A stretch of 64,000 nt of DNA from Deuterostichococcus epilithicus. Taxonomy: Eukaryota; Chlorophyta; Trebouxiophyceae; Prasiolales; Stichococcaceae. Shown piece after piece: positions 1,804-54,582 of the stretch (positions are counted from its first letter, which is position 1; each line of letters starts with the position of its first letter). A model generated the notes under the pieces. That model saw only the letters and a list, made by a program, of their open reading frames with translations, did not search any database and was not told the DNA's origin. The position numbers and the translations under genes were made by a program. The DNA lies in contig JAVTLE010000015.1 of assembly GCA_033439295.1 (NCBI GenBank), positions 1,116,001 to 1,180,000 on the forward strand, read 5' to 3'.

Positions 1804-3420
1804 ATGCTGGGCCGGACGTCTGCGCTGTGCCGGCGACCAGGCGTCTGGCGCGCCTCTTTAGCGCAGCCCCACTTATTAGCAGCAGCGCAGAGCGCGTGCA
1901 GCGAACAATGGATTGAATTGGCAGCGGCGCAGTGCAGCGTGCGGCTCGCCAGCGGCGGCAGCGGTGCCCTGACGCCGTATCAGGGCAGGTCCAGCCTGAC
2001 CGCAGCGGCGAGGTCGCTGCTCGTTGACACCCTCGACATGGCACGCCCTTTCTGCGATGTGCAATGCCGAAGACGCGTGCTGCATGCACACCTGTGTGAC
2101 TGGATGATGCCAGATGTCACAGCCAACATTCAGCTCGAGGACGCTTTTCTTGCACCTCAGGTGCGGAACTTCGAAAAGGTGGGCATGACGCGGGACCAGG
2201 CGGAGAAGCTCACGGAGCATCTCACCGAGGTGCTGTGCTCCCACAAGGAGAAGCTGTCGGAGGCGTACGTCACGAAGGCACACCTGGAAAGGGTAGGGCG
2301 GACTGTTGTGCTGCAGGAATCATGAAATCCTGGTGCCAGACGCACCATCCTGTGGCGGCATGTCCCGGGACGTAGATCTGGGCGAGGTTTGGGGTGAGCG
2401 CACGTGCTGCGTTAGAGGAGCCGACCAGTCCTAGCATCACCCACAAGCATGCGCGACAGGATTGCCAGTCCATGTGCTCTGTGTGGGCCTGACAATGTGC
2501 CGACTTCACATTGACCCGCAGACGGTGCTGGAGCAAATCTCACGGGACGCAGGCTTCAAGAGCGAGGTGCTCAAGGCGCAGGACATGCACCACACCACGC
2601 TCAACAGGGAAAGCGAGCGGCTGGCCAATGACGTGGCCAAAGTGCGATCAGAGATCAGGTGCGGCGCTGCTGACTTTGACATAGTCGCATCGGCATCGAT
2701 GCACTGTTCTCTTGTGCATGTGAAGGCGGTCTGCCGCGGCGCACGGTTTCTGGGTCTGATCCGTCTTCCGGAATGATCTGGTCCAGGTACGAGGTCGAAA
2801 AGCTGACGGCGAGCCAGCGGCTGGACCTCAACCTCGAGAAGGGTCGCATGCGCGACGAGCTGCAGGTATGCACATGCATTCATGTGCAACTGGGCCCAGC
2901 ACGGAGCAGGAGCGGCAGTGTCCCAGCAAGCAGCACCGACTTGCGATCAACACCGACCGGGGTGACCGTCTACGCTGCAGGATGCTTGCTCGCTGCTGCA
3001 GGAGGTGCTTGCTGTCGAACGCACTCTCGAGGCAGCACTACAGGTCCCATGTGGCATTGCACACCGGCCACGTCGCGCTTGCACCTGGCTGCAGGCATTG
3101 CGAGACAAGAGCAACGAGCTGGAGATCAAGATCGACAAGGAGATCAACGCCCTCAAGGCCGCGGTGGAGCTGACGAAGAACGAGACCATCAAGTGCGTTT
3201 TGTGTGACCCTCATTCGACCATGTGGTTCGTTGCACTGCCTCCAAACGCTGTGGGCTGTGCGAGATGCAGCAATGCCCCCTTCTTTCCCTCCTACTGACT
3301 GCACCCGTGATGATCACGGCCTTCTCAAAGAGCGCCGTCTTTGATGCCTACAGGTACAGCCTAGGTATGATGTTTGCTCTGCTGACGGTGGGGCTGGGTG
3401 TCGTCCGCCTCATTCGATGA
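1804..3420 (+). CDS. MCUR1/CCDC90-type mitochondrial protein (DUF1640)
   Basis: Six exons: 1804-2040, 2161-2292, 2522-2658, 2787-2865, 3095-3192 and 3354-3420, 750 nt, 249 residues. The N-terminus (MLGRTSALCRRPGVW) is Arg/Ala-rich and fits a mitochondrial presequence. Residues about 76-125 give the DUF1640 head VDTLDMVRNFEKVGM with TRDQAEKL. A long coiled coil follows, with SQRLDLNLEKGRMRDEL and KIDKEINALKA, both hallmarks of the family. The last exon is a single membrane helix (SLGMMFALLTVGLGVVRLIR). Human members bind the mitochondrial calcium uniporter or act in inner-membrane assembly; the role in algae is inferred. Intron 1 (2041-2160) starts with GC: only splicing there joins VDTLDM to VRNFEK as in the family. 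The start codon is the first ATG of the frame. A leftward-facing PPR gene follows. Confidence 0.85.
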
Positions 3421-3930
3421 CTGCTGTGGCAGTCGGCGTCCACCCCGTGCAGGCCTTACAGGTGGTGCAACCCGGCTGCAGTGCGAGACAGTTTTGGTGC
3501 CCGCTACATGCGGGTGACGTTACTTTGAGGCATGTATGTGTAGGTATATACCTAGGCGGGACCATGAGCTTGAATTGCAGCAGAAACGTGTGGCTTTGCG
3601 AGAACGTCAACACATCTGGCACAGCAGATCTGGCTGCGAATTGTTCACGAAAACAGGTGGCATGTAGGTCTGTCCCATATCTTCGCACTAGGCTATCCTG
3701 TGAAGAGCTGTATGAATTTTGGGGGCCGCCAGTTAGCAGGGCACTCTGCCAGGTGCCGCCCCACAGTCGACCAGCGCACAGCCACCATTGATCCATGCAT
3801 GAGGGCTGCTTCGTCCATGCATGAGGGCTGCTGCCGGAAGGCAGTCGCTGCACAGCCTCGGAAAGCACCATCCTCAGGCTGCCCGCCCACCGCGACCGCG
3901 GCCGCCAGTCTCGTGCCGAACCCTCCCGCC
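3421..3930. other. Convergent intergenic region
   Basis: 3 prime flanks of the DUF1640 gene (+) and the PPR gene (-). It contains a 19-base direct repeat (3792-3810 and 3814-3832). I see no coding sequence and no clear polyadenylation signal. Confidence 0.5.
3792..3832. repeat. Two direct copies of a 19-base unit
   Basis: The unit tccatgcatgagggctgct occurs at 3792-3810 and again at 3814-3832, separated by three bases. It contains the palindrome atgcat. It lies about 100 bases past the PPR stop codon, probably in its 3 prime UTR. Confidence 0.8.
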
Positions 3931-6240
3931 TCATCGCAGCCCGTTGTTGGCCGCCACTATCCGCAGCCCCTCGCGCCGGAAGCGCTCCGCGAGCTGCGCC
4001 GCCTTGGCAGCCTGGCCGCCCTTGCGCAGCGCCGCCAGCAGCGAGCTGCCGGCTGAGGCATCCGGCTTGACGCCGGCCGCGCTCATGGCGCCGTGAATCC
4101 GCTCTGCATTGCGAGCGTCGCCGGCGGCCGCTGCCGCCCGCAGCGCCGCGCTGTACAGCTCCAGGTCCGGGGTGTTGCCCGCACGTGCCATCTCCTCCAG
4201 CAGCTGCCGTGCCTGCAGTCGTGGCAGGGGAGCAGGTTGGGAGGAGGATGCCATCGGGACAGCGGGTGGGGGCGCAGGGCGTCGTCAAGCAAGCAGGAAC
4301 ATGAAAAGGAGGCTGGCTGGGATCGGGGGTGACACGGGGGGTTTCTGGGCACACGACATGCCAGCAGAAATGCCAAGTGTGCTGAGGGAAGCACGGTGCA
4401 GGAGCTGCTGGCTGTCCAGGGCAGGCCCTCGATGGGGGAGGCACCTGCGTGCACAGGTAGAGCCGCCCACCTGCTTGGCGAGGCCGCCATTCTCGAAGAC
4501 GAGCATGAGGGCATTGATGACGCTGCGGGAGGGCTCCAGCTCTGCCATCTGCATTTCCAGCCACACCTCCACTGCCCGCTGCCAATCGCCCCGCTTGCCC
4601 AGCTGCACAGGGGCGACAGGGTGCTGCGGCATCACCGCCAGTCCGCACACAGCTGTCACGCTCCTGACCCTGGCCAAGCCGTCGGCAGTCCGTGTGGCAG
4701 CACTTGCGGCGCTGTGGCAGCGGACACGCCGCCAATGCGTGTGCGCGAAGGCGACACCAAGACACTTGGAAAAACGACGTCAGCACCCCCGGGGGGGGGG
4801 CAGTCTGCCCGGCAGCAGGACCCCCCGCACCACAGGGCACACACCATGCGGGTGTGGGAGGCGCAGCACCTGCTGGATGATGGAGCTGTAGTTTGCAAAG
4901 GACGCTGCAAAGCCGGCGCTGTGCATGCAGTCCAGCAGGTCCAGCGCCTTCTCCGTTTCATTGTGCCTCTCGCACGCTGCAAGGCGGGTGGGGACAACAC
5001 ACCTCGGGCAGCTGCTCTCCGAAGCTCTCCGGTGCTGGACGTGCACAATGGCAGAGTCTTTTCCCCTCGCCCGGTCTAGCAGGCAATGTGCTAGTGCACA
5101 GCGGGTCTCGCCTGTGAGGAGGTTGCTGAAGGTGATCATGTCTGCCTCCCTGCCTGCTGCCTTCATCTCCTCATACACCTGCGCAGGCGCTAGGAGCGAT
5201 GGGAGAGAGGTACGAAACCCGGCGACTCGGCAAGGTACTCTGTTCGTGTAAGAAAGGAAGTGAAGACACCTGTTCGCGGAACTGTTCTTGAATACCCGTG
5301 CTGCAAAGCATGTGATGCCGCACACCTGCAACGCCTTGTCCAGGCGGCCGCCCTTCTCACACGATGATATCAACGCCTGCGCAGAGGAAAAACATGTCAT
5401 CAGCACTCTCTGCATGAAGCGTTACACCCAAGCTAGAGAACCTGTCGAGTCGCACAACCCGGATCACTGCCTGCTGGGAGACCCGTTGCCCGATGATGTG
5501 GATGCGTCGAGGAGGGCAGTCGGCGCACCGAGTAGGTGATGGTGTTGGGCACGCACTCCGGGTCATGCTGCGCAGCTTCCTCCTGTTCCCTGAACACCTC
5601 GATCGCCTTCTCCCACTGGCTGCCCAGTGCCGAAATGAGTGCCTGCAGCACAGGCAGCAGCGTTGCATCATAGAGCGTGGCCGGTAGGCTAATTGGAGAA
5701 TTGGAGTTGCGTCGTTAATACACAGCGAACCTCCGTCAGGCATATTCCTTTTGCGTTGCAGGGACTGCCTACCGAGTATGTGATAGTGTTGGGGTGTAGG
5801 TCTGCGCGCTCCCGCAGCGCCTGCCGCACCTCCATGGCCTGCACGAGAGTGAGACGTCCCTGACACCTGAGGCCCGCCTGACAAAAGCCGCCCGCGCCCG
5901 GCAGCTGCTGGCTCGTACAGGTCATCGAGGCGCGCACCTTTTGCCAAGCCTTCGGCGTCCTGTCGCGGCTGCACAGCTGCAGGAGGGATGTGAAGCCGCG
6001 CACGCCCGGCCTGAATGGCGCCTCTGAGATGATCCGCTGCACCTCGCCTGTGCCGGCTGGGGCGTGCCACACGGCGGCCTTCAGCCCTTCCTGCAAGCGC
6101 ATGTCAGAACAGAATCATTGGGCTGGCGAGCCACACTAGGGCGCAACTTGCACTGTGCAAGCACTTGATGGGGAAGCTGCTCTCGACACGACACGACACC
6201 TGGGTGCATCCCCAGCGCGTGATGCATGAAGACGTACCAT
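3931..6240 (-). CDS. Pentatricopeptide repeat (PPR) protein, P class
   Basis: Minus-strand exons: 5938-6090, 5773-5838, 5529-5642, 5326-5376, 5112-5178, 4870-4976, 4471-4602 and 3931-4212 (stop at 3931), 324 codons in phase. They form about eight helical PPR units, recognisable as ALISALGSQWEKAIEVF, HPNTITYS, ALISSCEKGGRLDKALQ, VYEEMKAAGREADMITFSNL, SNYSS-like ends and LYSAALRAAAAAGDARNAER. PPR proteins bind single-stranded organelle RNA, one base per repeat, and guide processing, stability or translation in chloroplast or mitochondrion. No DYW or SMR tail is seen. The intron 4977-5111 has a GC donor. The 5 prime end is unsettled: an ATG at 6238-6240 stands directly against a strong GTACGT donor and would splice to 6090, but then the protein would lack a transit peptide, so a further exon up to about 6578 is likely. 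Confidence 0.8.
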
Positions 6241-6879
6241 TGTGGACGGCGCCTGGCCGGCTGGTAGCGGCTGCGGAGGGGACCACGCTCCAGAGCCTGC
6301 ACTCAGAAGGTTTCGGAACCAGGTTGCAATCCGGATCAAGCTGGGAAAACGTCACCGTATCCCGTGACTGTGTGCTCCGCGACCGACAGTCAGGAGTGCG
6401 GAGCAAGGATCGCATTTGTATGCCGAACAAGCTGATCGCGGCCCTCGCCTGATCGATAGGGCCGGTCCCCTGATGCTGCCCTGCTGCCCTGCTCTGCCCT
6501 GCTGCGGGGCCCTGCCCCAGAGGAGGATCCGCGGCGGCTGTCCGGTATGCTACCACCATCTCTGCCACCCGACGCCATGTCCAGTACCGACAGCTCTGGT
6601 GGCCGGCACTGTCAGGCGACTTTGCTACTTATTCACCGATCCGTCTTGTCGACAGCGAGGCGCCCACCGGCCGCAGTCTCCAATCTTGACCGGTGAGGGT
6701 TTGAGTTGCCGTTACTGCTGGCGCTGGCTGTGCACTTTGCACTGCCGCTTGGTTTCCACGGCATTTGCATGCACGTTCAGCGGAGCATGAGCAAATAGTA
6801 GGGTTTAGCAATCACTGTCCCCACGACCGTGGAGACGGACGAATTCCAAAGCAAAGGCGGATTGGGTGCCTCCTGTTTC
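6241..6879. other. PPR upstream region
   Basis: It lies between the last placed PPR exon and the repeat array. It may hold one more PPR 5 prime exon (an ATG at 6576-6578 opens a frame rich in Gly, Arg and Ser) and the promoter. I could not support a definite exon. The segment 6470-6520 is a short run of ccctgct repeats. Confidence 0.35.
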
Positions 6880-8830: not shown

Positions 8831-9091
8831 GAAGCCCATAAGCGGGGGCGGTCAGGCACGACACGACTAGTCAAACCAAGGGCGGGCTGTAGAAACCACA
8901 GTTAGCGAGTCAGTCTTAGGAGCACGTTGAACAAAAATCATACGATGAATCCTGTGCCAAGAGTCGGCCACGCACCGCTCATCAAGAATGCAGCCACCTT
9001 CACACCGTGCCAGCATGCGCAACCATGTTGGCGCACAGTGCTTCTGTCTGCGAAAAGTTGAGTGGTCGCTGTGCATTTACTTCAGAGCCTT

Positions 9092-10893
9092 TCAATTGAG
9101 CTTAGCACGGTTCCAGGACAGCAACTTGGGGTCTCCCAACTTGCGCGGCCACCGCCACAGGGCGAATGCGAACAGCAGCGCGCAGGCGAAGCTGGCGGAG
9201 CCCACGACCAGGTACGCGATGCCCAGAAAGTCGTTGCGGCCGCCCAGCCAAGAGGCCGTGCTGAGCACCACCTGCAGGCACGACCCGAAAGCGACCTTCC
9301 AGCTGTAGCGCTGCCTTCGCAGCACCTTCCTGCCTCACGCTGGCAGAACTCCCGCCTGCTCTGTCGCCACAGACAATCAGAAGGTGAAGTAGCAAAGGGT
9401 CGTGCACCTTCTTCTTGCCGCCATAGCGGTAGCTGTTATACCGGTTGGCAATGTCGATGCGAATGGTTGTACCTGCCGCAATGTCCGTCTCAATGCGGCC
9501 CCACAATTTCCGGAATGCCGGAAGCGCTGCCGTCCGCATCCACACGATGAAATGCTCATCGTGCTTCACAGGTCCTGCGGATGTCCAAGGGCTCTGTCGT
9601 GTCGTGTGTTTGTACATGCTCACCCTGCTGGAGTGGGACGGTTGCCATTGAATCATTGCGCATCTGATGCCGTCAGTGCCGAAGGTGTCTCAACACAGGC
9701 CCACCTGCGATAGTGCCGCCGCCACGCGTGTCAGGATCCGCGTTGAAGTTTTCAACCAAGTACGAGCCGAACTTTTTGGTCCTGTCGCTCTTCCATGCAA
9801 TGTCGCTCTCATTGACCGGCAGCGCCACAGGCGGTGATGCCACGTCGGCTACAGTCGACACCTGCAGACGAACAGCCATGCATCATGAGCGAGCGCACCG
9901 AACTGTACCTCGTCGAGCAGTTCAAAACATCAGTCGCATCCCCCCGCACCGCAAAGGTGTCGTTGAAGTATGACCAGGCGACAAGGCCGCAAGGATTGAC
10001 TTCTGCCGAGGTGTCACCGTCCACATAGCGCTCAGGCGCGCAATCTGAAAGCGACTTGGCCTTCGCCCCTCGCAGCTGTGCGTCACTGCGGCTTTTGACA
10101 TACCTGCGGGGGTGGTTTGCAATGGCAACTTGGTGAGGCGGCAGACCGCACATGGAAACTGCCCCCCCTGCACTGCTGGCCTCTGAAGCCGCTTGCCTGC
10201 GATGGTTCTGATAGAAGTTTTCGAGCTCGTAGTAGAAGAAGATTGGCGCCTTCAGGTTCCTGGGCGCCAGAAGCTGCACCGAACAGTTGACGCCGGCGCC
10301 CCTCCGCTGCAGAAGGGCAGCATCCCTCTGTGCATCCGAAGGCCCCGCTGCCGTTGGGCCTATGCATGTGTCATCGTACCGAACAGACAGCTCCACCACC
10401 TGTGCGTGCATCGGAAGCCGCAGATATCAACTGGCTCTTCTTGGATGAAGAAGGCCGACAACTTCATGCCGCACGCAGCACAGGCGCATTTGCCGACAAC
10501 GCACCGATCTTGATGCTGTGAGGCACACCACGCCGATAGGAATGAAGACCAGGCCCACTGCGAAAAGTATTATCAGGACCTGCAGGTCCGACGTCAGCAT
10601 CAGGAGGGTCTGAAAGAGTGGGAAGTTGCTGTGCACATCATGCGTTGAGCGCACCACCGGCCGAGCTCACCCAGTTGGGCGTGAGCAGCGGACGGAACGC
10701 CGGGAGCTCCTGCTGAGTGAGCTTCGAGTCTGCAGACAATCGATGTCAGTTTTAGCATCAGTCCGGGTTTCCGTGCACCGTTGTCGCTCACACAACTCAC
10801 AGCTTGCGAACGAGACTCAGTCGCACATTTCGGCTCCCGCGTCTGCGCGTTTGCGGGTGACCGGGCGAGTTGAGGCACTCCAGTGTCTTCCAT
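9092..10893 (-). CDS. CDC50/LEM3 (ALIS-type) P4-ATPase flippase subunit
   Basis: Eight exons: 10794-10893, 10671-10729, 10505-10579, 10197-10399, 9950-10103, 9705-9861, 9408-9574 and 9092-9271; 1095 nt, 364 residues, the usual family size. Landmarks in order: [20 protein letters not shown]; first membrane helix ending [13 protein letters not shown]; lumenal [83 protein letters not shown] leading into the second helix; [18 protein letters not shown]50 proteins pair with P4-ATPases, let them leave the ER and are needed for phospholipid flipping. Conserved lumenal Cys residues and N-glycosylation-type sites (NCS, NDT) are present. The intron 10104-10196 (93 bases) begins GC and has no in-frame stop; removing it restores NHRRYV exactly. 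Exon 1 and its donor are the least certain part. Confidence 0.92.
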
Positions 10894-13547: not shown

Positions 13548-16500
13548 ATGTCGACGAAGCACCTTGCGCGCCTGCGGGCGCAGGCGCAGGAGCAGCCAGC
13601 GGCTAGCGCATCTGAAGACGACACCGACAGCGAGGAGTCTCAGCCGCAGCTGAAGTTCAATCCGTTCGACCTGATCCAGGACGAGGAGGGCAGCAATGCT
13701 GAGAGCGAAGCTGCTGGCAGCCAGCCAAGCTCTCCCCGGCAGGCCGAGGCCGCATCGCCTGCAGAGGTAGCGCCGCAGCGGCAGCCTGCCGCCAGCCGCA
13801 AAGCGGCAGGCAAGCAGGCAAAGCAAAAAGGGGGCAAACCTGGCGGCAAGGCGGCAGGCGGGAAGGGCGGTGGCAAGGGAGGCGGCAAATCTGCCGGCAA
13901 GGTCGCGGCAAAGGCCGTGGCACAGCGTGGCGATGATGCCGACATCGACCAGCTGCTGCAGGACCTCGACATGGCATCCGGAAAGGTGGGACGTGTTTGG
14001 ACCTAGCTATACACCGGATCACAAGACTTCTGCACAATGATCCTGGTTGGGACAATGGCCAGCGGCGTCCATGCCACTGAAGAATGTCTGACCTCCGAGG
14101 CGGCTTGCCGATGCGCAGGCGGCGCTGGCATCGATTGCGACCGGTGCCGCAGCGGCAGACCAGAAGCCGCCGCTGCTTGGAGTGAATCCCAAGCTGCTGA
14201 AGGCCGATGAGGAGCTGAGGCGCATCTTCGGCTCCGCTGTCATTGCAGAGGAGGCTCGAGAAGCGCGGCAAGGTGAATGGAGAGAACTTACTTACAGGTT
14301 CGGGCTGTGCATGATGTGGTCAAAGGGCAACGCCTTGCTACCACATTTGCGGGGTTCAAACAGCAGGCTGGCAGCTCCTGATGCACGGACCATTGCACGA
14401 TCGTAGAGGCCCAGCGGCGGGGGCAGCGGCACGGGCGCGCGGCTCTGAAGCGTGGCCTGCTGATCAGCCCCAGGCCGCACTGGCCGCCGCTGCTTGGCGG
14501 CCTGTCCATGGAAATCGCAGGTGAGTTTTCAGAACGTCTGTTATGCCGCACGTTTGATAGTCCCGTGGCACTGTCCAGTCTGTTTTGAATTTGGTGTTTC
14601 AGATTTGGCCAACAACCTATGCCGGCTGCGACACTCGATATGCCCTGAGTCCTCAGGCGTCAGGTGAGTTTGCGTGTGTGCAATTCAAGCAAATGACGCA
14701 GGCAGGCCCGTCTTGACACCCTTTCGTCCTGTTGGTGCGACTCTGCGCACTGCTGGCGCATAGGTGTCACGCAGGACGGGCGGCAGCTGTTCTCGTACGT
14801 GTACTCGTCTGCGTATGCGGCGGCGCAAGCCGTCTTCGAGGAGGCGCAGGTGCGGCGGCGCTGTCTGAGGGCCGTCCTTGTCAGCAAGCGAGAGCATCGA
14901 ACAGTCAGCTGCAAGCGTGCAATGTCGTAGACACTGGCGATCTCACCATTCGAAGACCAGGGAGGATATTGCACCACCGCAGGCGTCGCACGACCCCAAC
15001 GCCATTGCAGAGTTGCTGCACCAGACGCCCTACCACACGGACGCCCTGCTGGCCATGTGCCAGCTGTACCGGGTGAGCAGCTGTCTTGTCGGCGACTGCC
15101 TGTCGGTTCCTAGTGACACCAGGCAGTCGAAACGTCATGCCACTGCCTGCCCAGCCAAGTGATGGATGTCGCATGCGCAGCCAGGGGCCTTGTGGCGGCT
15201 GGTGTTCGATTGAGGAACCGCAGACCACGCCACTGGTGCGTGAGGCTTGAGTCTCACGCCAGCGTCCGCTGTGCAGGCAACGGGCGAGCACTCGACGGCA
15301 GACGACATGTTGGAACGGGCGCTGTACGCCTTTGAGATGGCGTGGCACCACAGCTTCAACATAGCCGCCGGCAACTGCTCCCTGATTGTCGAGGCCGAAA
15401 ACAACAAGGGCTTCTTCGAGGCGCTGTTTTGGCACCTGCAGGCGCGCACCGCTCGCATCTTTTGCTTTTCTTGTCGCCATTGGCATGCGCCATAAGCTCC
15501 TGCCGCGGAGCAGTGACCGATCGTCACACAGCGCCCACACAGGACTCGAGGAGCTCTCAGCCTCACAGACACCGCCGGTACGACAGCATCATGTACTACA
15601 GCCAGTCCAGCGGCAACGACGCTGTTGGTCTGTCACATGGACAGCTCCTGTCTGCAGTGGGCGCCCTGTTGCAGCGGCCCTCAATGCCCTGAACACTGGT
15701 CCTTGCACGCCGCACCGGCCTGCTGCAACTGAGACACCCTACCCGCGCAACCCTGTGGTGCCAGCCCTGTGGTGTTGGTGCGGCAGGGCCTGAGCCGGCG
15801 GGGCCTGCACCGCCCGGCGCTCGAGGTCGCCAAGTTGCTGCTGGCACTGGATGAGCGAGACCCCATGGGTGCGTTCTGCCTGGCCAGATCTGCCGATGCG
15901 TGCCTCCTGCATGGATCTCGCGCTGCTGGCATGCTCCTGCCGCCGTTGCCCGGCCGACTGCGCGCACCTCCTGCTGGCATGTTGTTGCTGCCGCTTGCCA
16001 CGCTGGCAGTCCGACATGTGCTGACAGCCCCCGCTGGCGCCGCGCAGGCATGCTGTTCTACATGTCGTACCTGGCCCTGTGCTCCCAAGACTACAGCTTT
16101 CTCCGGCGCTTTGTTGCGGAATGGGACGAGGGCAGCGTGCTGCTGCTGCCCAACTGGGCCTTCTCCGTGGCGCTCGCCGGCTTCCAGGAGCGGCGGCTCC
16201 CAGGTGTGTGATCAACAACTTGCATGGTAAACAACTTTCACTCTGCAATCTGCAGACCAGATTGGTTCGGCGATGCCTCTCGAATCTTCAAGAGCGCTAA
16301 TTACAAATCTTCACTCCACACACTACACGGTGCTTCGGCTTGGTGGCTATAGCATCCCAGCCGACAATGTCGTCCCTGAATCTGAGCGGCACAAGTTTAG
16401 AATGACTCTCATCATCGCTGATCAGGCTTATTGTCTCCTCCCGCAGACAAACTCAAGGACGAGGCCGCACGGGAGCAGCAGCAGCAGCGCGCAGACGAGG

Positions 16501-18633: not shown

Positions 18634-19052
18634 CAAGACGTGGTCAAATTATTTCTGTGGCTTGCCTATGCCGCTCTGTTCATATCGGATTGAGGCAGGG
18701 TATGGCACACAATTATCATGTGGCGTCTGAGGCGTGCAGGGAACTTTCAGGGCTGTTTAAGCGCGTGGCAGCGGCATGACCTCCGTCTGCAGCACGTTTG
18801 TGTTCCACATGTCGAAGCGGGCTCCACAACATCTGCGAAGGTGTTTTGCGCTGAGTGTCAGCAATCTTGCCCGTACAGGCATAAAGAATTAGCCCATTAT
18901 CAACCCTGCGCTGAATCGAGATCAGATAAGAGCCAGGTGCAGCGCGACAAGCGCGTGATGTGTGCTTATCAGGCGCAGGCGACGCCCTGGAAGCTCGGCC
19001 GGAACATAGATAAATCAGCAGCCATCGCTGTACCCATCTACGGCCTGCTGAC
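18634..19052. other. Intergenic region TCF25 to Rossmann protein
   Basis: Head-to-tail gap between two plus-strand genes: the 3 prime UTR of TCF25 and the promoter of the next gene. No TGTAA signal and no other structure was seen. Confidence 0.4.
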
Positions 19053-22000
19053 ATGGCCACGGCCCTTGGAGCAGGCATCAGCCTGCTGAAACCGACGTTG
19101 CACAGCAGTTGGCGAGCGTTCCCCGGTGGCAGAGCGCTGTCGGTATCGAAACACGCACAAAGATGCTCGAGGTAGCGTTCCATTGCGTTGGGTCCTTGAA
19201 AATTGGAGCGAGTTGATCAAGTCATCAGATATCAGTTTCTCTGTGCCACCTGCAGGCGTGGAAACCCGCAGCAGACGGTGCATGCCCTGTGGGGAAAGCG
19301 GCAGAAGCCTGAGGTAGACGAGGACGAGGATAATTACGAGGAGCCTGCGCCTGCTGGGTTCAACCTTCGCAACCTTTTCAGTGCGCCGCCAAGCCAGATG
19401 CACAAGCCGCTCCTCTCCTGCAGTTCTCCGTTTGCGAGAATCCCCCTTGATTCTGGTCCTGAACCGAGAGTGAAATGTTTGACAACCCTCTCACACGCTC
19501 AGGCGGCGGCGGGCGCGCGACGGAATCGGGCACCCGCACTCGCAGCGGCAGGGAGGCAGGCGCGCGCATTCGCGCCGGCAAGGCAGCCGGCGGCACAGAC
19601 CGCATCGGCGGCGCCAAGCGGAAGGGCACTGGAAAGATCGGAGTGCAGAAGGCGCAGATCGGCACGCAGCGCGTCGGCAGACGCAAGCCCCGCCTCGGCG
19701 GCGGCACCACGCGCATCGGCGGCCGGCGGGGTGGCACCACCGTTATTGGCGGCGGCCGCAAGAAGGACACGGGGCCGCGCGGCCTGTTCGGCGGCCGCAG
19801 CGGGCGCAAGGACACCGGGCTGGTGAGCAAATCTGGCGCTTGGCGCCCGGCAGAGCAAGCAATCACGGGAGCCACGGCCAGAGACAGGGGAAAGCACCTG
19901 TTGGCAGCACCTGCTGGCAGAGTCTCGACACGGCAATCAATACCCAGGCCTCACCGTGGTCGCGGTCATTCCAGTGTCCTTGTTGCAGCTTTTTGACGTA
20001 TTTACTGCCGTGTCAATGCCGCAGGTGTTTGTCGCCGGCGGCACCGGACGGCTGGGCTCGCGCATCGTGCGGCAGCTGCTGCTGCAGGGCCTCAAGTGCG
20101 CGTCCACTCCCTCACGGTCTAGCTGCTGTGCGAGGGCAGACTAGGGCCACATTGTCGCTTCCGGAGCATCCCATTGCGTGCAGATATGGCCCCCATGCAG
20201 ACTTGCCTTACGACAGGCGGAAGCATGGTGCAGATAAGTTGGGGTTGGCTTAATTTGGCGTCCTGAAGGGCGAGGACGGCACAGCACGGCGCAAGGAACG
20301 CATGAACCTGAGCGCAAGAGCCTCATGCGTGCCCACGCTGCGCAGGGTGCGCGTGGGCGTGCGCAACGTGGAGAAGGCACAGGGGTACCTCGACACGGCG
20401 GTCGCATACGGCCTGCTGCCGCGCGGCGCCGAGCGCCGTGTGCAGATCGTGCAGTACGACATCACGGACCCAGAGTCCATCCCGCCCGCCATCGGCAACG
20501 CCGCTAAGGTGGGGGGGCGGCCATGACGCTCGCAGCTGAGCCCGTGCCAGCGGCACGAGCGCCCTGCACGATTGCAGCTACAATTGTGATTGATTTGCCA
20601 ACACTTGCATGCTCGGGTGGAGACTTACTGGGAAGCACTCTTGAGAAACCCCATCTGGTAAAGGTGACTGACGAATCGGGCATCAGGTGGAGTCGTGGTG
20701 CCTTTACGTCAAACTGTCTGGGAAGAAAGGGGACTGGCAAACCTGGTGGCATGTGGCGACATCGCAGCGCCTTCATGCCAATGCAGGTGGTGAGCGCCAT
20801 CGGCGCGGCAGAGGCGCTGGACTTTGGCGCGCCCAAGAAGGTGGACGGAGAGGGCGGCATCAATCTGGTCAATGCCGCCAGGGCCGCCGGCGTGCAGCAC
20901 TTCATCATGGTCACTTCGTTGGGCACAGGGAAGCTCGGCTGGCCAGCGGGTGCGCTCGTGCTCCAAGAGCCGCTGCCCTTTTGGGCGATGGTGAACACAC
21001 AGTTCGTGTCGGTCCCATGTCAGGGCGCAGGAACGGCGTCGGCCTGTTGTTTGCTGCAGAATGCCAGCAGCCGTATATGCCACGAGTTGCACCCATGAAT
21101 CTTGTAAGGCAAAAATCTTCACCGCCGCTCCACTCGCGCGCAGGCATTCTGAACCTTTTCGGCGGGGTTTTGATTTTCAAGAAGAAGGCAGAAGAGGCGC
21201 TGGAGAACAGCGGCATGCGCTACACCATTGTGCGGTGCGCCGCTGCGGGCGCTTGCTTCGGTGTCTGCAAACTCGCTGGGTTCATGGCCGCTTGCTGCGC
21301 CTGCCGCTTGCACAACCAGGACCTGCACCATGACCAGCGGCTGCCTGCTGCCGTTGCGTCTGAGGAACCCCTGCCGCTGTTGTGCGCCCCTCTAGAAAGG
21401 CTCTAGCAGCGCAACAGCATACGTGTTGCACCGGAGACACCAGGTCGACTGGAGAGATGTCATATGCATGTGTATGAGAGCTCTCACGACAATTCGTCGT
21501 CCAATGCCGCAGTCCGGGCGGCATGGAGCGGCCGTCGGACGACTTCAAGGAGACGCACAATGTGACCGTGGCACCGCGTGACACGCTGTTTGGCGGCCAG
21601 GTGTCGCGGCTGCAGGTGGCTGAGGTCGTCGGCACCGCCATCGCGCGCACCGAGCTTGCCGAGAACAAGGCGCGTGATGTGAAGAGGCGACCTACAGCTT
21701 TGACGGATTCTCAGCATGCTCCTGTGCAGCTCTCAGGCGGTCCGTTGGGGTAATGGCAGGATCCGGGTGTATTTCGGGATGGCATAATGAGGGCGAGTGT
21801 GGGCAGTTGCTCTTCACCTTTGCGCCCCCGTGAGGCACCCTCATGCGCGCCATGCGATCAGAATAGGGATGCTGAGGCTGAACCTTGATTACACGGTTGC
21901 CTAACCACGATTACACGAACACGCAACCCTCCATGGCCTGCTGCCAGAGTCAGCACAGTCCCGGGCAAAAGCAACGGCTGGCTGCACAGGTGCTGGAGCT

Positions 22001-27559: not shown

Positions 27560-30500
27560 TCAGACGGTGCCGGCGTCGTTGTGGATGCGGTCCAGCTGCG
27601 GTCCATTCAGCGCCTCCAGCCGCGCCCGCATCGTGCCCAGAAAGTCCTGCGGCGCAGGATCAGGGACCAGTTGGTCCCATTGCCGCAGCAGCGGTTCGCA
27701 GGCATGACAGCATCATTAAGGCGCGCCGACACGCATGCCGGTGCAGGTGTGCTTCCCATCCGACGCCAGCACCTCGACCCGATTGTCGGCCTCGAAACTT
27801 GCCACTGCGGCCCGACACGCTGTGCGCCACATAGGTAGGTATGCATCCAGGACCAGGCAGGGACACTTGCACGACAGCGTGCATGGAGCGGGAGCGCGGT
27901 GTGCCGCGCCTTGATGGGCGGCAGGTCCTTCAGGGGGCCGAAGGGGCCAGGGGAGGTGTCCCCCTCCTGGCCGCGCGCCGCCGGTGGGTACATCCAGGCG
28001 GACACCGACTCGATGAAGGGGTCCGCCGACTGCGACAGTATGGCCTCCCAGTCCGTCTGGTAGCCCTGCGTCAAACATACAACCCTTAATAAATATTTGC
28101 GCGCCGGCAGCAGGCCGATGTCAGCTCCGCACTCCTCTGGGATGAGCGCAGCCGGCAGGGTCGCTTCCACGTAGCAAGTGCCGCGCCTCCACCCGGGCAC
28201 GGTCATCCTTCCCTGCCCTGGCTGAGTGCTTGTGCTGGCAGCTGGACGTCATTGACGCGAGCACACAGACGCGAGGTCGAGGCATGACTGCAGTCCGGAC
28301 TGCCAGCGACAGCGCCGACATGAGCAGGCTGCCGGAGCACACCTCTGGGATGCTGGCGGTGATGGGCATGCCGGCGGCCAGGAAGACGGACAGCAGCGTC
28401 ATAGCGCCGACCACTGCGGTGCCCCGCGCCAGCGGCATGAAGTTGTACCTGCGGCCGCACACAATGAAACCCTTGTTGGATCATCAGCGTCTTCATTCAG
28501 TCGATGGAACACAGCGCCACCAGAGCCGGGCAAGCGTCAGGACACCAGCAATGCCATGCTTTGCCGATGCCATGCTGTCCGCGCAAGCGCACGAGGGCCG
28601 CAGCTTCGCTGAGAATGCTGCTCACGGCTTCCCCCTGGAACGAGCTGTCGGGGTGCGCACCAGTAGTAGGCGTAGTGCAGGGCGCGGCGCGCGATCTCCG
28701 GCCGGTCGTTGGCTGCCAGCGCCTCCATCAGCGCGCCCCACGCCGCCGTCAGCTCCTGCGTCCCAGGGCAGGAGCAGTCAACGTTCGTGGGGTGGTGCAG
28801 TCGAGTCAGTCGAGATGGCTTGGATCGAGTGTCAGGCCGGCGGCACTGCAAGGTCCGGCTCGGTGGACGAGGTGACGTGCCAGTCATCGATGTGCAGTGC
28901 AGGTCGCGCACCTCGTCGAAATCCTGCCAGCGGGGAGGCGTGACGGGCGTGCGGATCGACATCTCGTGGCCGTTGGGCATGTCGCCCATGCGCACCACCT
29001 GCGCAGCGCCAGGGTTCAGGCTCACGAGTGTGACACCCACGGCTGGGCAGGAAGCAGAGAGCTGCGCGTTTGATGTGCTGCAGCCGCGCCGACGCGTCAA
29101 CAAGAGAATGCCTGCGCCTGCCTGCCTGCCTGCGCCTAGCACAGGGTCCGAGTGCACCCTTGGGTTGCAGGCGCATCTGGACGGCGCTGCTGGAACCCTG
29201 GTGCACTGTGGCGGGGGGCCAGCCAGCGGCCCACACATCGGTGACAACTCAAATCAAAGACAGGCGGCAGACATCCGTAAACGGTTCACAAAAGGTGAAG
29301 AAACGTTGCCAAAAAAGAGGACAGCGCACCGTGAGGCGGGTGCCCTCCAGGTTGTGGCCCGGGCGCGACTGCGAGGCGATGGGGACCACCGCCCAGCAGT
29401 CCACGCCCAGCGCCTTCCACAGCTCCTCTGCGCTTGTCGCCGCCGCCACCGCCGCAGCCTTCTTGGATCCCTTGTCCACCGGCACTGCGGGTTGGGATGT
29501 GTGCAAGGGGTTAATGCCGGTCTCCTTTGAGAGAGCATGAAGACTCGCCCAAACCTTGCTGATTACGCTCTCAGGCGGTCTCTTGCTGCTGCTCTGTGCC
29601 CTGCTTTCGACTGTCAACTCGGACGACTCGAGGTGCTCGTGGCGCAGAAAGGCGCTGGAGCAGCTGGCAAAGCTCAGGAATTTGCGTATGTCCATGTGTG
29701 CAGATGCACAGGCCTTCGTGCCTGCTGCAAACGCTGGTGCAGCCTGCATCACAGCAGCTGATGCTGTGCCCATGATGCAGCAATAAACCGGCGAGAGAGA
29801 GAGAGCAGGGACAGAGGACATGACAGCACTCACCGGCAATGTTGTGGGCGTCAAAGCCGTGGCCATCGCGCAGCAGCACCTCCTTGAAGACGCCCAGCGC
29901 GCGGTCAAAGTTCATGTAGTAGCGCACGCACTTGGTCTGGCCGCTGAAGATGGGCGTGTGCGAGCCAAAGCCCGCCTCGAATTCCGCCTTGGTCAGCAGG
30001 TCCACCCACAGCACCTGCGGCGGCAGCGCATCAGCAGCATGTTGTTGGCCATGTCCTGGACAGGCTTGGAGCCAGCAAGCAGCACGACTGCAGGTGTACA
30101 GCGGCAGAGGCAACCGCCGGTGCCGGTTGAGCAGTGGCTGCAGGGGTGGACTGGGCAGGGGTGGACTGGCGTGTGGCACACTTGTGCTGTTCCGCTGCGT
30201 TGATCCTCTGCTCTGGACCGAGCTGTCCCTTCATCATCCTCACCTGGTCGTTGGGCTCGGACAGCTGGCGCCATCGCACGAGGATGTCCATGGCGTCGCG
30301 CCAGCCGAACAGGTGGGTGCCCGACGCCGAGGTCTCGCCGCTGGCGCCGTCATTTGTCACCCGCAGCGGCCGGCTCGCCCGCTGGGACGCCAGCTGCGGG
30401 GGCGAGGGATCACCACGGGAGTTCGACAACCCATGGGCATTCAAGAGGTCCGGCAAGACAGCACCCAAGCTCACGCGCGGCAGCAAGGCCGCGGTGCCTC

Positions 30501-35173: not shown

Positions 35174-45027
<9,854 letters not shown>

Positions 45028-45870
45028 CACTTCTGGGCAGTGCTTTTACTAGACCACGTTGCATGACGCCGTGGTTTTGTGTGCTTTACGGATGTTATGC
45101 TGCACTGACTGGCATACCGCACTGACTTGCATGCCGCACTGACTGACCCGTGGTGCTTGTTTCGTGCAGTGCCCACCTATTTTATGTGAATGCTGGGCCC
45201 GTGGATGTCTTCCTTGGTTGAAAGCGGCCGGTCCGCGTGTCAGCTGATCATACTGCCGACGCTCAGCTCAACTACGTCTTGCCAAGCAGTAGGCCGGTGA
45301 CAGCTCGGACCTTCAGCGCGCAGCGGGCTGCTGTGCGATTTTCACATGTAGGGTCAACCTCTTGGATGACAGCAAGCCGCTGCTGTTGTATTTGTCAGCC
45401 ACCAACAGGTTGCATCTTTGTTGGTATACGTTTGAACATTCTTTGAGGCTCGTGGGCCAGATGTTGATACCTGCTTGCATGTTCTGTGCCCTGCATCTCG
45501 CTGTGCATGCGCATCTGCTCGAGCAACACTGATTTTCTGTCAGTTCTGTCCAGTGCAAGTTCACCAGCCCGCCACAATTCAAAGCCATACTTCTATGACT
45601 TTTGCAAATTGGTAGCCACATGCTCCCCAGACCAAGGACGTACATCTGCAGCTGCGGAGTATGGGTGCTTGTCCTACAACTTCAAAGAATTCTGGAGCAT
45701 GCGCATAGGTGTATATTCCCAACTCGAAGCAACTGTTATGACATGAAAGCTGTGGCCAATGAAACAGCACCGGCACGGAGCCCATCTCATCTAGGCTTTT
45801 GACCAGAACCCGCCACTCAGGAGAGGCCAGCTGCCGTGCGAACCTTGCGCAACCGATGAGCAGTCAGCGG
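45028..45870. other. Convergent intergenic region with a short tandem repeat
   Basis: 3 prime flanks of the FHA-AAA gene (+) and the apyrase gene (-). It holds three imperfect copies of about 17 bases (gcactgactggcatacc type) at 45101-45150. No gene recognised. Confidence 0.5.
45101..45150. repeat. Three imperfect 17-base tandem copies
   Basis: Copies begin tgcactgactggcatacc, gcactgacttgcatgcc and gcactgactgacccg. About 75 bases past the FHA-AAA stop codon, probably in its 3 prime UTR. Confidence 0.7.
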
Positions 45871-48800: not shown

Positions 48801-50044
48801 GCATACTCCCGCTCCACCCTACCGGGCGCCCCGGGGGGGGACCTCTGGTCTCCTACCCCTTCCCAAGCGCGTGCAGAGAGGGCTATGCTGCAAGATGCCT
48901 GGGGCGGGCCATTCGAGGGCTGCGGGGCGGCAGCCGCCAGTGAATGCCAGCAGTCAGAGCGATCCACAACCTTTAAACCCTCAGCCCTACCTGAAGCTCT
49001 TCAGGGACCGTCTTAAGGGCAGTCGCCAGGAGCTGATCCAGCGAGGCCGCCGCGGCGCCCGGGTCGCTGTCGTAGGAGCTCAGCCCCGGCTTCAGCTGCT
49101 CGAAGGTGTCCGTGTCCAGGTCCAAACGGCCGTCCACGACCTGCATGCAGCGGACGCTGCGCTCCAGTCCCCGAGGCCACCTTGTTTGCGGTGGCTGTCT
49201 GGCCGCGGCACACTGTTGTGTCCGGTAGCTGACCTGACATGCAGCAAGCGTTGGCTCGTCAGCCAAAGCCCCGACTGCAGCGTCGACATCAGATGTTGGG
49301 CCACCCACCAGGAACTTGTACACGTGCACGCGGCTCCCGGTACTCCCGGCATCTATGATCACGGCATACTGCAACGCGCCCTTTTCTGCGCTGTTCAGCT
49401 TCGACGTGTCTGTCGTGTCGACGCCCTCCTTCACCTGCAGCACCACAGGACAGCGAGATCGCCAGCGGACAGCCTGCCACCCTGGAGCATGTAGCAGTGG
49501 AGTCAGGGCAGAGTCGGCCGCATGCTTGGCGCGGCGATCGCATCTTTTGCTGACTGGCTGGCGTGCTCGCATCCCGATCTGCAGGTGGGATGCCGGAAGC
49601 TCGCCTTCTTCAGGGTGGGCAGCTCCTCGTTGCTCTCGGAGGTGCTCAGCACCCGGTAGGTTTCCGGTCCTGACCGCGGCATAATCATCAGCACTGCTAG
49701 TATGAGCAGCACCTGTGCGTTGAGCGCGCACAGATTCAGGAAGGTGCACTTGAAGTGACACTGTCCGCTGCAGTGTGATACTGCTGTTGTGTCTCCAGAT
49801 TCATGTGCAGCGTCGAAGGCATGCCGCAGCATGCACTTCTCCAGCCTGACTGCCAAGTACAGCAGCTCACCGGCACAGAGATCAGAATGACGACGCCGCG
49901 GTACCTGCGCGCAAGAGGTTTGCGTGTCAAATGCAGGCTGCGCACTGACACTGGTGATCGCCGCCGCCACCAGCACAGACTGCAGGCAAGTGCCGCAGCT
50001 CACCTCAGGTACATGTCCGACAGGCTGGACGGTCGATGCCGCAT
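45871..50044 (-). CDS. GDA1/CD39 nucleoside phosphatase (apyrase)
   Basis: Thirteen exons: 50004-50044, 49871-49904, 49605-49712, 49309-49434, 48991-49140, 48557-48698, 48139-48233, 47735-47853, 47343-47489, 47064-47100, 46589-46798, 46210-46284 and 45871-45984; 1398 nt, 465 residues. A short cytosolic tail (MRHRPSSLSDMYLR) precedes one signal-anchor helix (GVVILISVPVLLILAVLMIM), assembled from three exons. All apyrase conserved regions are present: ACR1 IIDAGSTGSRVHVYKF, ACR2 GATAGLRLLPG, ACR3 IIDGTEEGGFAWLTLNYLLG, ACR4 IDLGGGSVQMAF and ACR5 EAAWPLGAAIN. Late motifs are CTFAGAWGG, SYFWDRAQDVG and YLCMDLSFLHTLL. The enzyme hydrolyses nucleoside di- or triphosphates; with one N-terminal anchor, a Golgi or cell-surface location is expected. 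The intron after 49605 has a GC donor. The 37-base exon 47064-47100 is the shortest of this gene after exon 2 and is supported by phase and by its Cys pattern. Confidence 0.92.
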
Positions 50045-50474
50045 CTTGGAGAAGCTGCCGGTCGAGAAGGATCTCGGACTGGCAGCTCCCGGCAAACCCC
50101 TCGACCTGGAGGGCCCCAGTCTGCTCTGCTCTACGCCTCCTCGCGAGGGTCTTTGCGCAAAATGCAGCGCCACTTTGTCGACGTCACTCCGTCAGTTCAC
50201 TACGGATCGTCTATCTGCCCCTAGGCAGAAGATAGAGGCACCAGAGGGGCCTGCAATCGACCAATACCTCCGACCAACACCCGATCAACTGCTCAGATCA
50301 GGTTGCTGCCCGTCGGTCCACGAGGAGCCTATGTGTCCAGCGATGTGAGGTGGTCCCAGGAGAATTTGCAATGACTGCTGTCACCGCCATTGCTCCTTTG
50401 GCGCTGCGAGCATGGGAGTTGCACCCGCGGTACACCGCCACTGAGTCGCCACAGCCCTGGCGACAGCATCACGC
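50045..50474. promoter_or_regulatory. Divergent intergenic region apyrase / IPMS
   Basis: 430 bases between divergent start codons; both promoters should lie here. No leucine-linked or other defined regulatory motif could be identified. Confidence 0.4.
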
Positions 50475-53400
50475 ATGCACGAAAAGGAGCCCGCAGGCTG
50501 CCTTTTCTCGAAACGTTCGGCAAACATGTTGGCCCAAGGGCGTATCGTCTCGCCTGTGGCGAGCACCAGCGGCCGCCAGTCGCCGGCGCAGCCTTGCCCG
50601 ACGCGGCAGGGATGGCTGCAGACGCCGCGCCTCAGGCATCAGCGGCGACGACAGCGGCAGCAGCAGCAGGCGCACCGAAATATCTGCATCAGCATACAAG
50701 CTGCAGCAGGCAATGGCGCGCTCACAGTACCGCGGCAGCGGCCTCCGTACGTCCCGCACAGGATTGATGACCCGAACTACGTCCGCATCTTCGACACCAC
50801 GCTGCGCGACGGCGAGCAGTCTCCAGGCGCCACGCTCACGGCGAAAGAGAAGCTGGACATCGCGCGGCAGCTGGTGAAGATGGGCATCGACATCATTGAG
50901 GCGGGCTTCCCGCAGGCGTCGCCCGGCGATTTTGCGGCAGTGCGCAGCATCGCGGAGACAGTGGGCCGGGAGGTGGACGCCGACGGCTACGTCCCCGTCA
51001 TCTGCGGCCTCGCGCGCTGCGTGCAGCAGGACGCCGAGGTGCACTGTTGGCCCTCTGACCATGTTGGCCGCTGCGGCGGCGCCTTCCCGCCACATGGCAG
51101 CTATGGGGCGGACTCAGACAGACGGCAGACGCCAACCGCTGCTGTGCCCTTCGGCGATGCAGCGCCTTCGGCAGAGGCCCTGGGTATGCCCCCGCAGTCA
51201 CACAGGCCGCACGTGCTGATCGGCTTTGATGCGCGCCGCACAGGCAGCCTGGAACGCGGTGCGGCCGGCGGTGCGACCGCGGGTGCACGTCTTTCTGGCC
51301 ACGTCGCCCATCCACATGCAGTTCAAGCTGAAGATGACGGAGGACCAGGTGGTCGCCAACGCTGTGAAGACAGTCAAGCACCTGCGGTCCCTCGGCTGCG
51401 AGGACATTGAGTTCTCGCCTGAGGACGCCACCCGGTGAGCTTCGTTGCTTTCGACAGTCTTGCTCTTCTTGCCACTCTCCAAATTTGCGTCGCTGTGATG
51501 TGCCTCTGAGGGCTAGGTTTTGGTGGCATTGCTTGCAAGCAAATGGCGCATCACTGCCAAACCGGGTGTTACGTCACTGCCAAGACAGCAAGCGGCCTCA
51601 TTGGCCCCAGCGAACGCATCCGCCGGGGTCTGGGCAGAATGGGGAAAATGGGGCAATTCATGACCACAGATGGCGCAGGTCCACAGTGCAGATCGTGCTC
51701 CTTTTCACTGTCACACTTCCTGGCACACATCAGGTCGGAACCCAAGTTCCTGTACCGGGTATTGGCCGCGGTCATTGAGGCTGGCGCAACGACCGTCAAC
51801 ATCCCGGACACCACTGGGTGGGCGCTGCCGCACGAGTTTGGAGCCCTGATTGCGGACCTCAAAGCCAACACGCCCGGCATCGACAACGTGGTCATCTCCA
51901 CGCACTGCCAGAACGACCTGGGCCTGTCCACGGCCAACAGCCTCGCCGGCGCGCAGAACGGCGCTCGGCAGGTGACTCTCTGCCGCCCATTGGCGCTCTG
52001 CGTGTGTGCCGGGCCATGCCGCTGTCTCTTCGGTGCCCACCAGCTACAACTAGCAGGGCAAGGGAAGGCATTTGCAGAGGAAATGTGACCTGCTGCTGGT
52101 GTACAGAAGTCTCAGATTCCGTTTGTGATTCTGCAATCCTTCCTTGACACAGGTTGAGTGCACGATCAACGGCATCGGCGAGCGGGCTGGCAATGCCTCC
52201 CTGGAGGAGGTGGCACTTGCCATCTACCTGCGAGGGTGAAGCTCCTGGGAAACTCTCTTGTCATTTCGTCGCATCAACATGTACGGCTTGCATGATGGTT
52301 GGCACGACATTGATGGAACGGCCTCTCACAACGCGTGATCGTGCGCGTCATGCAGGCAGAGTCAGATGGGGGGCCTGTGGACAGGCATCCGGCCAGAGGC
52401 GACCAGCGCCACCAGCAAAATGGTGTCAGATTACTCTGGCATGCTCATACAGCCACACAAGGTGATAATCTCGTCTGTTGCCTGCCCTCATTCGAGCGGC
52501 TCCTGTGCCTTCCGCGCCTGTGCTCCCTGGTGTGTTTGTGCCGTGGGTGCTGCCTGCCGGCCGCCACCCTGTTGGCCGCAGGAGCCAAGCTGGCTGGGCA
52601 TCTGAACAGGATGTCAGGCTGTGTGCTCACCGCGCAGGCCATTGTGGGTGCCAACGCCTTTGCGCACGAGTCAGGCATCCACCAGGACGGCATGCTGAAA
52701 AGCCCGGACACCTACGAGATCATGCGGCCGGAGCTCATTGGGCGCACCCGCAATGACGCTGCTGGTGCGGCGCCTGCTACGGGGGTGCATGACGATAGAG
52801 CGGGCGGTGCCAAGCACATAAGCGGCAGAGTCTGTGCTGGCCCTTGTAGAGGCTTTTGCATTTCGGTTTGACCGGCCTCGCCCTCCTCGAATCCTCATCG
52901 GATCCTCCAGTCCAATAGTGTGAACCAGCAGCCCTTCATGCCACCCGCAGGCCTGGTGATGGGCAAGCACAGCGGCCGGGCGGCACTGACCAAGCGCCTT
53001 GCGGACCTGGGCTTCAAGCTGGACGACGCGCAGCTCAACGACGTCTTTGCCCGCTTCAAGAAGGTCAACATGCATAGCTGTGTGTCTGGGTTTTGAAAGG
53101 CGGCGCGGGGGATGCGGGCTGCTAGGACAGTGCAGCCACCAGTGCTACGAAGGCGTTGGTCCCATGGGATAATCAGCGGCTAGACGAGAGAGTGGCGGCT
53201 GAACCTTCTGTCCTCGTTCTTTGCCGTCACCTGCCGATCCAACACAAAGTCTACCCGCCGCCTGCCTGTGGCTGACTCATTTCGAGACTGCACCTGGTGC
53301 AGCTGGCGGACGTCAAGAAGGGCATCACAGACGATGACATCAGCGCGCTGGCCACTGACGAGGCCAACCAGCCCGTCGTTGTGTGGGATCTCGCCGACCT

Positions 53401-54582
53401 GCAGGTGCCTCATGCTTGACAGAGAAGGAGCGCAAGGAGCCATTCCACTGCATGCCCCATGATGCCTTGAAGAGGGGGATGCCTTGAAGAGGGGGCTTCG
53501 GCCTTCTGGCACGTCGCTTTGCTGATCGAGGCGCCCGCAGGCACACGTCAGGTGCCTGACTTGCCGTGCTCGGTGGTTCAAACAGGTGACGAGCGGAACC
53601 CTGGGCCTGAACACCGCAACAGTCAAGATGAAGGGTCCCGATGGCATCCTGCGCATCTCCACCGGCACCGGCACAGGCGCGCTGTCGTCCCTCGGCTGAG
53701 ACAGTTCCTCACCATGCGGCACCACCGCGTCATCCGCCTGGCTGGCTCCTGAGGGGGCGAGGTGCCGCTGCACCAGGGTGGCTGGAGCCGCCAGAGCTGC
53801 CGATGGGAGAGGGCGGAGGCAGGAAGCCTGCAGTCGAAGGCTGTGAAATCAGGTGCCATGGGGAACCGCGCTGTGCCGCAGGGCCGGTGGACGCGGCGTA
53901 CAAGGCCATTGACGCGCTGGTGGGCGTGGAGGTGGTGCTGGACGACTACGCCATGAACAGCGTGACGGAGGGCATCGAGGCGCTCGCCGTGACGCGCGTC
54001 ATCGTGCGCCCCACGGGCTCCCTCGCCGCCCAGGGGGTCGTCAAGAGCGCGCAGGTGGGGCGGACCGTGAAAGGCGCAGGCTGTCGCTCATGTCGGCATC
54101 CCCTCACCCCGCTGCCCGGGTCCTGCAGAGCAAGCCCGGCGCGCAGGGTGGCTGGCTGGCTGGTGTTGACCAACCAAAGTAGGGGCTGTGTCAGACCTCG
54201 GTTCTGCCGTCTGGCAGCGCTGCTGGGCACTGGTGGCTGCAGCATGTGAAACAGTGTGTGTCGCCAGCGCGAGACCAATGCGCCCCAGCACATGAGGTGA
54301 TGTCGGGCGCCAGCGTGCGGCCAAGTCACCCTCGCAGGACAGTCGGAAAGCAGCAGCATGCTGAGGAACGTTCCCTGCGCGGCACAGGGCCGGCGCTACC
54401 AGCGCACGTTCTCGGGCACTGCGTCGCACGAGGACATTGTGGTGGGCTCCGCCCGCGCCTACGTGACCGCCCTGAACAAGCTCATCAACTACATCAAGTC
54501 GCAACAGGCGGCAGCGCTGGACCCCGCCGTTGAGGAGCAGACGGACTCGGTGGCCACCGAGCCGGTGGCCACCCCCGTTTGA
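50475..54582 (+). CDS. IPMS: 2-isopropylmalate synthase, plastid leucine pathway
   Basis: Eleven exons: 50475-51038, 51244-51434, 51734-51971, 52153-52235, 52362-52461, 52638-52764, 52951-53063, 53303-53404, 53586-53670, 53882-54054 and 54388-54582; 656 residues from this ATG, 639 from the in-frame ATG at 50526. The Arg/Gln/Ser-rich N-terminus fits a plastid transit peptide. The TIM barrel begins [20 protein letters not shown] (metal and 2-oxoacid site) and continues [52 protein letters not shown] and [27 protein letters not shown] and [14 protein letters not shown] give the linker subdomains. The C-terminus is the leucine-binding regulatory domain ([40 protein letters not shown]). It condenses acetyl-CoA with 2-oxoisovalerate, the first committed leucine step, and should be feedback-inhibited by leucine. 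The intron after 53670 has a GC donor. Confidence 0.95.

Follow-up and report, generated by a model that had tools for sequence, protein, structure and literature searches.

Gene models suggest frequent GC-AG introns, nearly all in strong donor contexts, in the green alga Deuterostichococcus epilithicus

About 9% of the introns in the sampled genome of Deuterostichococcus epilithicus appear to be genuine U2-type GC-AG introns, a share that, as judged from gene models, is several times the usual 1% of plants and animals. GC donors accounted for 30 of the 329 confident introns (9.1%, CI 6.2-12.8) that a gene HMM placed in the window, by which we mean the whole 64,000-nucleotide stretch of DNA analyzed here, and in 16 shorter stretches outside it.

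GC donors in and beyond the window

The genome comprises 46.8 Mb in 21 contigs, of which 224 kb were analyzed, namely the window, with a GC content of 61.6%, and 16 ten-kilobase stretches (160 kb), with GC contents of 57.9-63.6%. Gene models were obtained with a two-strand gene HMM of 157 states, self-trained by EM, with a generic codon model as the starting point and without annotation or homology, while the base at donor position +2 was left free in the later EM rounds. Only introns with G at +1 and an AG acceptor were allowed by the HMM, and all shares given here are therefore shares within such introns. A donor was considered confident at an HMM posterior of at least 0.9, and GT-only gene models were produced by the HMM with a GC probability of 1e-7. 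The consensus of the trained HMM was CAG/GTGCG at the donor (the slash marking the exon-intron boundary) and YGCAG at the acceptor.

At the confident level, the window contained 12 GC and 112 GT donors (12/124), while the 16 stretches outside it contained 18 GC and 187 GT donors (18/205). The Viterbi path in the window held 138 introns, 17 of them with GC donors, and the Viterbi paths outside gave GC in 31/264 introns, together with five GA donors, all below 0.9. An earlier sequence-only reading of the window had counted about 13 GC donors among about 145 introns, near 9%, which agrees well with these figures, and the HMM gene models extend its high share to DNA beyond the window. In cross-validation, a model trained outside the window returned 12/108 confident GC donors within it, and these were the identical 12 donors, whereas the window-trained model returned 20/183 in the outside stretches, along with five GA and four GG donors below 0.9.

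These shares were calibrated by simulation. Genomes simulated with GT donors only gave GC in 2/393 and 3/360 confident calls (0.5 and 0.8%), and simulated true GC shares of 1.8, 6.3, 10.4, 9.3, and 13.0% were measured as 2.6, 7.2, 11.2, 8.3, and 14.6%, all seven simulations containing plus-strand genes only and giving GC donors the strong context seen in the data. When GC donors were simulated in an ordinary context, 26 of 85 true GC introns were recovered, and the 31 confident GC calls included 5 false ones; because of such false and missed calls, single GC calls are not all certain. The free EM counts at +2 were 437.7 for T, 81.2 for C, 14.7 for A, and 7.3 for G, and the C counts in three simulated GT-only genomes under similar training were 3.9, 8.5, and 7.5. 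We discarded the corresponding free-EM GC share of 15% as too high, since in simulations 57 and 48 true GC donors were overestimated at 75.6 and 63.5, and true shares of 9.7 and 8.3% at 12.8 and 10.9%.

The sequence-only reading had listed 13 GC donors, and a GC dinucleotide indeed stands at all 13 coordinates. Ten of them were recovered exactly at a posterior of at least 0.9 (5111, 15442, 21670, 27909, 31656, 33154, 40935, 42156, 43829, and 49604), while 2041 and 10196 lean on homology and 53671 was displaced by 53677. The following 14 introns of the window have GC as their first two bases and AG as their last two (donor sequences with the exon in lower case).

2041..2160, plus strand: GC-AG intron in the DUF1640/CCDC90-like gene, atg/GCACGC, posterior 0.75
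4977..5111, minus strand: GC-AG intron in the PPR gene, cag/GCGAGA, posterior 0.998
6271..6448, minus strand: GC-AG intron in the 5' part of the PPR gene, cag/GCGAGG, posterior 0.98, from the HMM only and absent from the earlier list
10104..10196, minus strand: GC-AG intron in the CDC50 gene, cag/GCAAGC, posterior 0.26, donor joined by hand to the acceptor at 10104
15442..15786, plus strand: GC-AG intron in the TCF25/Rqc1-like gene, cag/GCGCGC, posterior 0.999
21670..21989, plus strand: GC-AG intron in the Rossmann-fold gene, aag/GCGCGT, posterior 0.98
27647..27909, minus strand: GC-AG intron in the TTC13-like TPR gene, aag/GCGCGG, posterior 0.97; the GT-only model adds 7 residues
31446..31656, minus strand: GC-AG intron in the TTC13-like TPR gene, cag/GCGAGT, posterior 1.0; the GT-only model drops 11 residues
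32947..33154, minus strand: GC-AG intron in the TTC13-like TPR gene, cag/GCACGT, posterior 0.998
40935..41196, plus strand: GC-AG intron in the FHA-AAA gene, aag/GCGAGT, posterior 0.999; the GT-only model adds a long in-frame stretch
42156..42291, plus strand: GC-AG intron in the FHA-AAA gene, gag/GCAAGC, posterior 0.97
43829..44204, plus strand: GC-AG intron in the FHA-AAA gene, aag/GCGCGC, posterior 0.998; the GT-only model adds ARALLLS
49435..49604, minus strand: GC-AG intron in the apyrase gene, aag/GCGAGC, posterior 1.0
53677..53881, plus strand: GC-AG intron in the isopropylmalate synthase gene, cag/GCGCGC, posterior 0.997

The donor at 53671 was rejected, with a posterior of 0.0006 against 0.997 for 53677, which lies six bases downstream and is also GC; the listed position is thus probably to be corrected to 53677. 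Both 10196 and 53671 were absent from the Viterbi path, on which 53677 was present. Apart from 53671, the donor at 2041 is the least well supported of those listed, and the outside-trained model picked another GC donor there, at 2008 (0.56). The HMM split the isopropylmalate synthase into two adjoining models at 50526-54582 of the window, which are likely a single gene. The Rossmann-fold gene model (window 19475-26930) has a long Lys/Ala/Asp-rich tail with two near-identical WIDDWRSGG ... FKWPWK modules. Between gene models, an inverted repeat, TTAAACCCTGAAATCA ... TGATTTCAGGGTTTAA, was spotted by eye at 1487-1542 of the window.

Donor context of the GC introns

All 30 confident GC donors carried A at -2 and G at -1, and 29 carried G at +5. 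The three bases occurred together in 29/30 GC donors compared with 136/299 GT donors (Fisher p 1.6e-8), in line with the strong exon-side context described earlier for the window, and outside +2 the GC donors matched the donor consensus more closely than the GT donors did. Detection bias was simulated as a cause of this context and found insufficient: in the ordinary-context simulation, only half of the 26 recovered GC donors had -2A, -1G, and +5G, so that detection bias alone falls short of the observed 97%. The excess of phase 0 among GC donors (25/30, compared with 179/299 GT donors, p 0.011) would follow from exons whose last codon is a complete CAG, AAG, or GAG.

The ratio of C to T at +2 was 29:136 in strong contexts and 1:163 in weak ones, while the C:T ratio of introns was 1.38. 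From these ratios, a rough mutation-selection estimate would put scaled selection at +2 near 1.9 in strong and near 5.4 in weak contexts. The local GC content around GC donors was not significantly higher than around GT donors (0.638 vs 0.627, p 0.19, a comparison of low power), and a compositional cause is therefore not evident locally. GT donors were also shifted toward G and C, with G at +3 in 86%, C at +4 in 49%, and C at +6 in 38% (n = 299 confident). C is the commonest base at +4 of these donors, in the window and stretches L011-L026; canonical U1 prefers A at this position.

The sequence-only reading had explained its GC donors by a relaxed recognition of position +2. Tolerance of C at +2 agrees with our data, but a general relaxation is too broad a description, as GA and GG were found at none of the 329 confident donors in the window and the 16 stretches, and GC was nearly confined to strong contexts.

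Splicing machinery and the origin of the GC share

We consider it very probable that these U2-type GC-AG introns reflect GC drift, which a spliceosome of ordinary appearance tolerates as long as the donor context is strong. Where a genome is rich in GC, T at +2 would be converted to C by mutation or by biased gene conversion; the C would persist in donors whose other bases (-2A, -1G, and +5G) pair well with U1, and canonical U1 would pair around the resulting C-A mismatch. The sites, their share, their link to context, and the U1 5' ends of canonical sequence come from computation; we infer splicing at the modelled junctions and, as the cause, GC drift under context-dependent purifying selection.

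U1 and U1C had been proposed for comparison, and the U1 5' ends and the readable U1C-like pieces looked ordinary. There are at least 10 U1 candidates, found with 41 of 864 first-look candidates scored. Their 5' end was ATACTTACCTG in 8 of the 10, and thus canonical, ATGCTTACCTG in one, and ATACGTACCTG in one, and 8 of the 10 scored above the Rfam cut-off. The GC donors match this canonical 5' end. Position 7 of U1, which faces donor +2, was A in 10/10 candidates, and a U1 compensating for C at +2 was rejected, given that no candidate of the 10 had G at this position. The U6 ACAGAGA box was intact in both copies found. The U1C-like pieces MPRYYCDY and VRKQHNSGFKHK, located in L039/L040, were ordinary-looking and, as we take them, resemble plant U1C. 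A first zf-U1 match (L029) was discarded as U1C, its translation being presumably WBP4-like from its appearance. LUC7 was matched in two places, and one Methyltransf_10 gene, of what we take to be the family holding METTL16, was present.

The U1 candidate with the 5' end ATACGTACCTG, at G000:C10:224723-224884 (L009), lies under the Rfam cut-off and has U changed to G at position 5. It shares an upstream AACCCAT element and a C-rich 3' flank with the other copies, and its Sm-like site differs. The G at position 5 could pair with C at +4.

Abundant GC-AG introns are a known phenomenon in GC-rich algae and are not new in kind. GC donors are likewise common in Emiliania huxleyi, a lineage distant from the present alga. 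There they reach about 55%, and they are described as a challenge to most gene predictors in the accessible part of the PhycoCosm paper (PMC7779022). The portion of Iwata and Gotoh (2011, PMC3033335) available to us gives GC-AG shares of 39.6% in Aureococcus anophagefferens, 22.2% in Micromonas pusilla, 7.7% in Chlorella sp., and 2.7% in Micromonas RCC299, describes the U1 5' ends of Aureococcus and of the two Micromonas as canonical, and calls the origin an enigma. As here, a canonical U1 5' end goes together with a high GC-AG share in Micromonas pusilla and Aureococcus, though the shares there are larger. Chlorella sp. is, like the present alga, a GC-rich green alga with a share far above 1%, although its 7.7% comes from transcript alignments and our value near 9% from gene models. 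GC-AG introns of the same class average 1.2% in plants (Pucker and Brockington 2018, PMC6310983) and make up less than 1% in mammals (Churbanov et al. 2008, PMC2490688), going by the accessible text of both papers; the latter also discusses how GC sites might become fixed neutrally where the context is strong. A full-text literature search on GC-AG non-canonical splice sites in Coccomyxa found no paper. What is new here is one more genome, with a share near 9%, on the short list of GC-rich algae, and an annotation-free, calibrated method that indicates an excess restricted to C at +2 and to donors of strong context.

GC content alone is insufficient as the sole cause, given that Micromonas RCC299 has 64.1% GC, compared with 61.6% in the window, yet a GC-AG share of 2.7% in the available part of PMC3033335. 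Here, a splicing machinery altered in this lineage (through a variant U1, an RNA modification, or a protein associated with U1) so that C at +2 is read more easily would make the share mechanistic and not mainly a product of drift, an explanation that we regard as unlikely though not negligible. The widely differing shares of the two Micromonas at similar GC content, the word enigma for the cause in the text seen of Iwata and Gotoh, and the one sub-threshold U1 candidate that differs at position 5 are consistent with such a change. Against it stand the lack of G at position 7 in the 10 U1 candidates, the ordinary U6 box and readable U1C-like pieces, the presence of LUC7 and Methyltransf_10 (proteins at which we only glanced), and the dependence of GC on a strong context while GA and GG go unused at confidence.

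Retention of GC donors for the regulation of alternative splicing, as proposed in mammals and nematodes, is improbable: recruitment of GC donors for this purpose is put forward in the consulted part of Churbanov et al. (2008, PMC2490688), whereas the GC donors here lie in strong contexts, and many of them belong to housekeeping genes, which are expected to be spliced constitutively. It is very improbable that the machinery is tuned to GC-shifted donors, for example through the position-5 G U1 candidate ATACGTACCTG pairing with C at +4; if it were, a U1 of this kind would make the duplex strong enough for C at +2 to be tolerated, and about half of the donors do have C at +4.

Protein families across the junctions and gene prediction

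Protein families were used to compare, in most cases, the GC model with the HMM's own GT-only model, and where a family spans the junction the GC models seem mostly to score higher. At 2041, the CCDC90-like family PF07798 gave 110.5 bits for the GC model and 105.6 for the GT-only model (+4.9). The CDC50 family PF03381 gave 258.7 bits with the hand-joined GC intron at 10196, compared with 240.1, and the Tcf25 family PF04910 gave 189.2 compared with 171.8 at 15442, where the junction is ungapped in the alignment to Rqc1 of 9ofv. LeuA_dimer (PF08502) scored 102.6 bits with the donor at 53677, 97.1 with 53671, and 79.8 in the GT-only model, which puts 53677 ahead by a modest margin. For the PPR gene, with its donor at 5111, the GC model led in PF01535 (93.7 vs 83.5), PF13812 (81.8 vs 67.9), and PF13041 (97.7 vs 96.4), whereas PPR_long reversed the order (58.0 vs 65.0).

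In the FHA-AAA gene, human VCP chains gave 318.1 bits with the GC junctions at 42156 and 43829 taken jointly and 297.3 without them, and the best archaeal-type chain gave 324.9 with the GC junctions compared with 318.4 without; PF00004 did not discriminate (131.2 vs 131.1 bits). The junction at 43829 is ungapped in the alignment of the VCP-like domain 2. NAD_binding_10 gave 120.7 bits in both models at 21670 and thus did not discriminate either. The apyrase junction at 49604 falls at residue 26, upstream of the aligned stretch, which begins only at residue 48. For the donors at 27909, 31656, 33154, and 40935, the support comes from the HMM; the junction at 33154 was kept in the protein even with the GC probability at 1e-7. 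The earlier claim that homology forces a GC donor at each listed site is therefore too strong: the comparisons bore on 7 of the 13 (2041, 5111, 10196, 15442, 53671/53677, and 42156 with 43829), with a mixed outcome at 5111, and the rest are undecided by homology.

Outside the window, TIP49/RuvBL2 gave 156.4 bits in the GC model and 132.0 in the GT-only model, and thymidylate kinase 86.9 and 73.0, although these two comparisons are not like for like, because only for the GC version was an acceptor picked by hand so as to restore the family block. The HMM modelled some acceptors outside the window wrongly. Junctions were ungapped in the RuvBL2 alignment and at the importin-beta donor 2046, also outside the window. 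Another importin-beta donor, L025:948, was set aside as not cleanly supported, with gaps nearby in the alignment and little difference in HEAT score (56.0 vs 52.4).

When GT was forced, 9 of the 14 window proteins longer than 100 aa were altered, through in-frame insertions and deletions and changed ends, and the GT-only proteins contained no internal stops. The expectation that GT-requiring gene finders would break nearly every long gene here is thus overstated. That most GC sites are modelling artefacts, with true splicing at GT donors a few codons away, deserves hardly any credence: the stop-free forced-GT models mean that in-frame alternatives usually exist, and PPR_long favors the GT-only model, but GT-only models add or drop residues within conserved domains and, at sites where the main family discriminates, score 4.9 to 24.4 bits lower for it, and GT-only simulations give less than 1% confident GC calls. 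Gene predictors for such algae must admit GC donors, as forcing GT alters proteins silently.

A PsaD gene is also present, which together with the plant-like genes is in keeping with a green alga, and its modelled protein matches photosystem I chains, with 6igz and 6ijj, which we take to be green-algal photosystem I, among the best.
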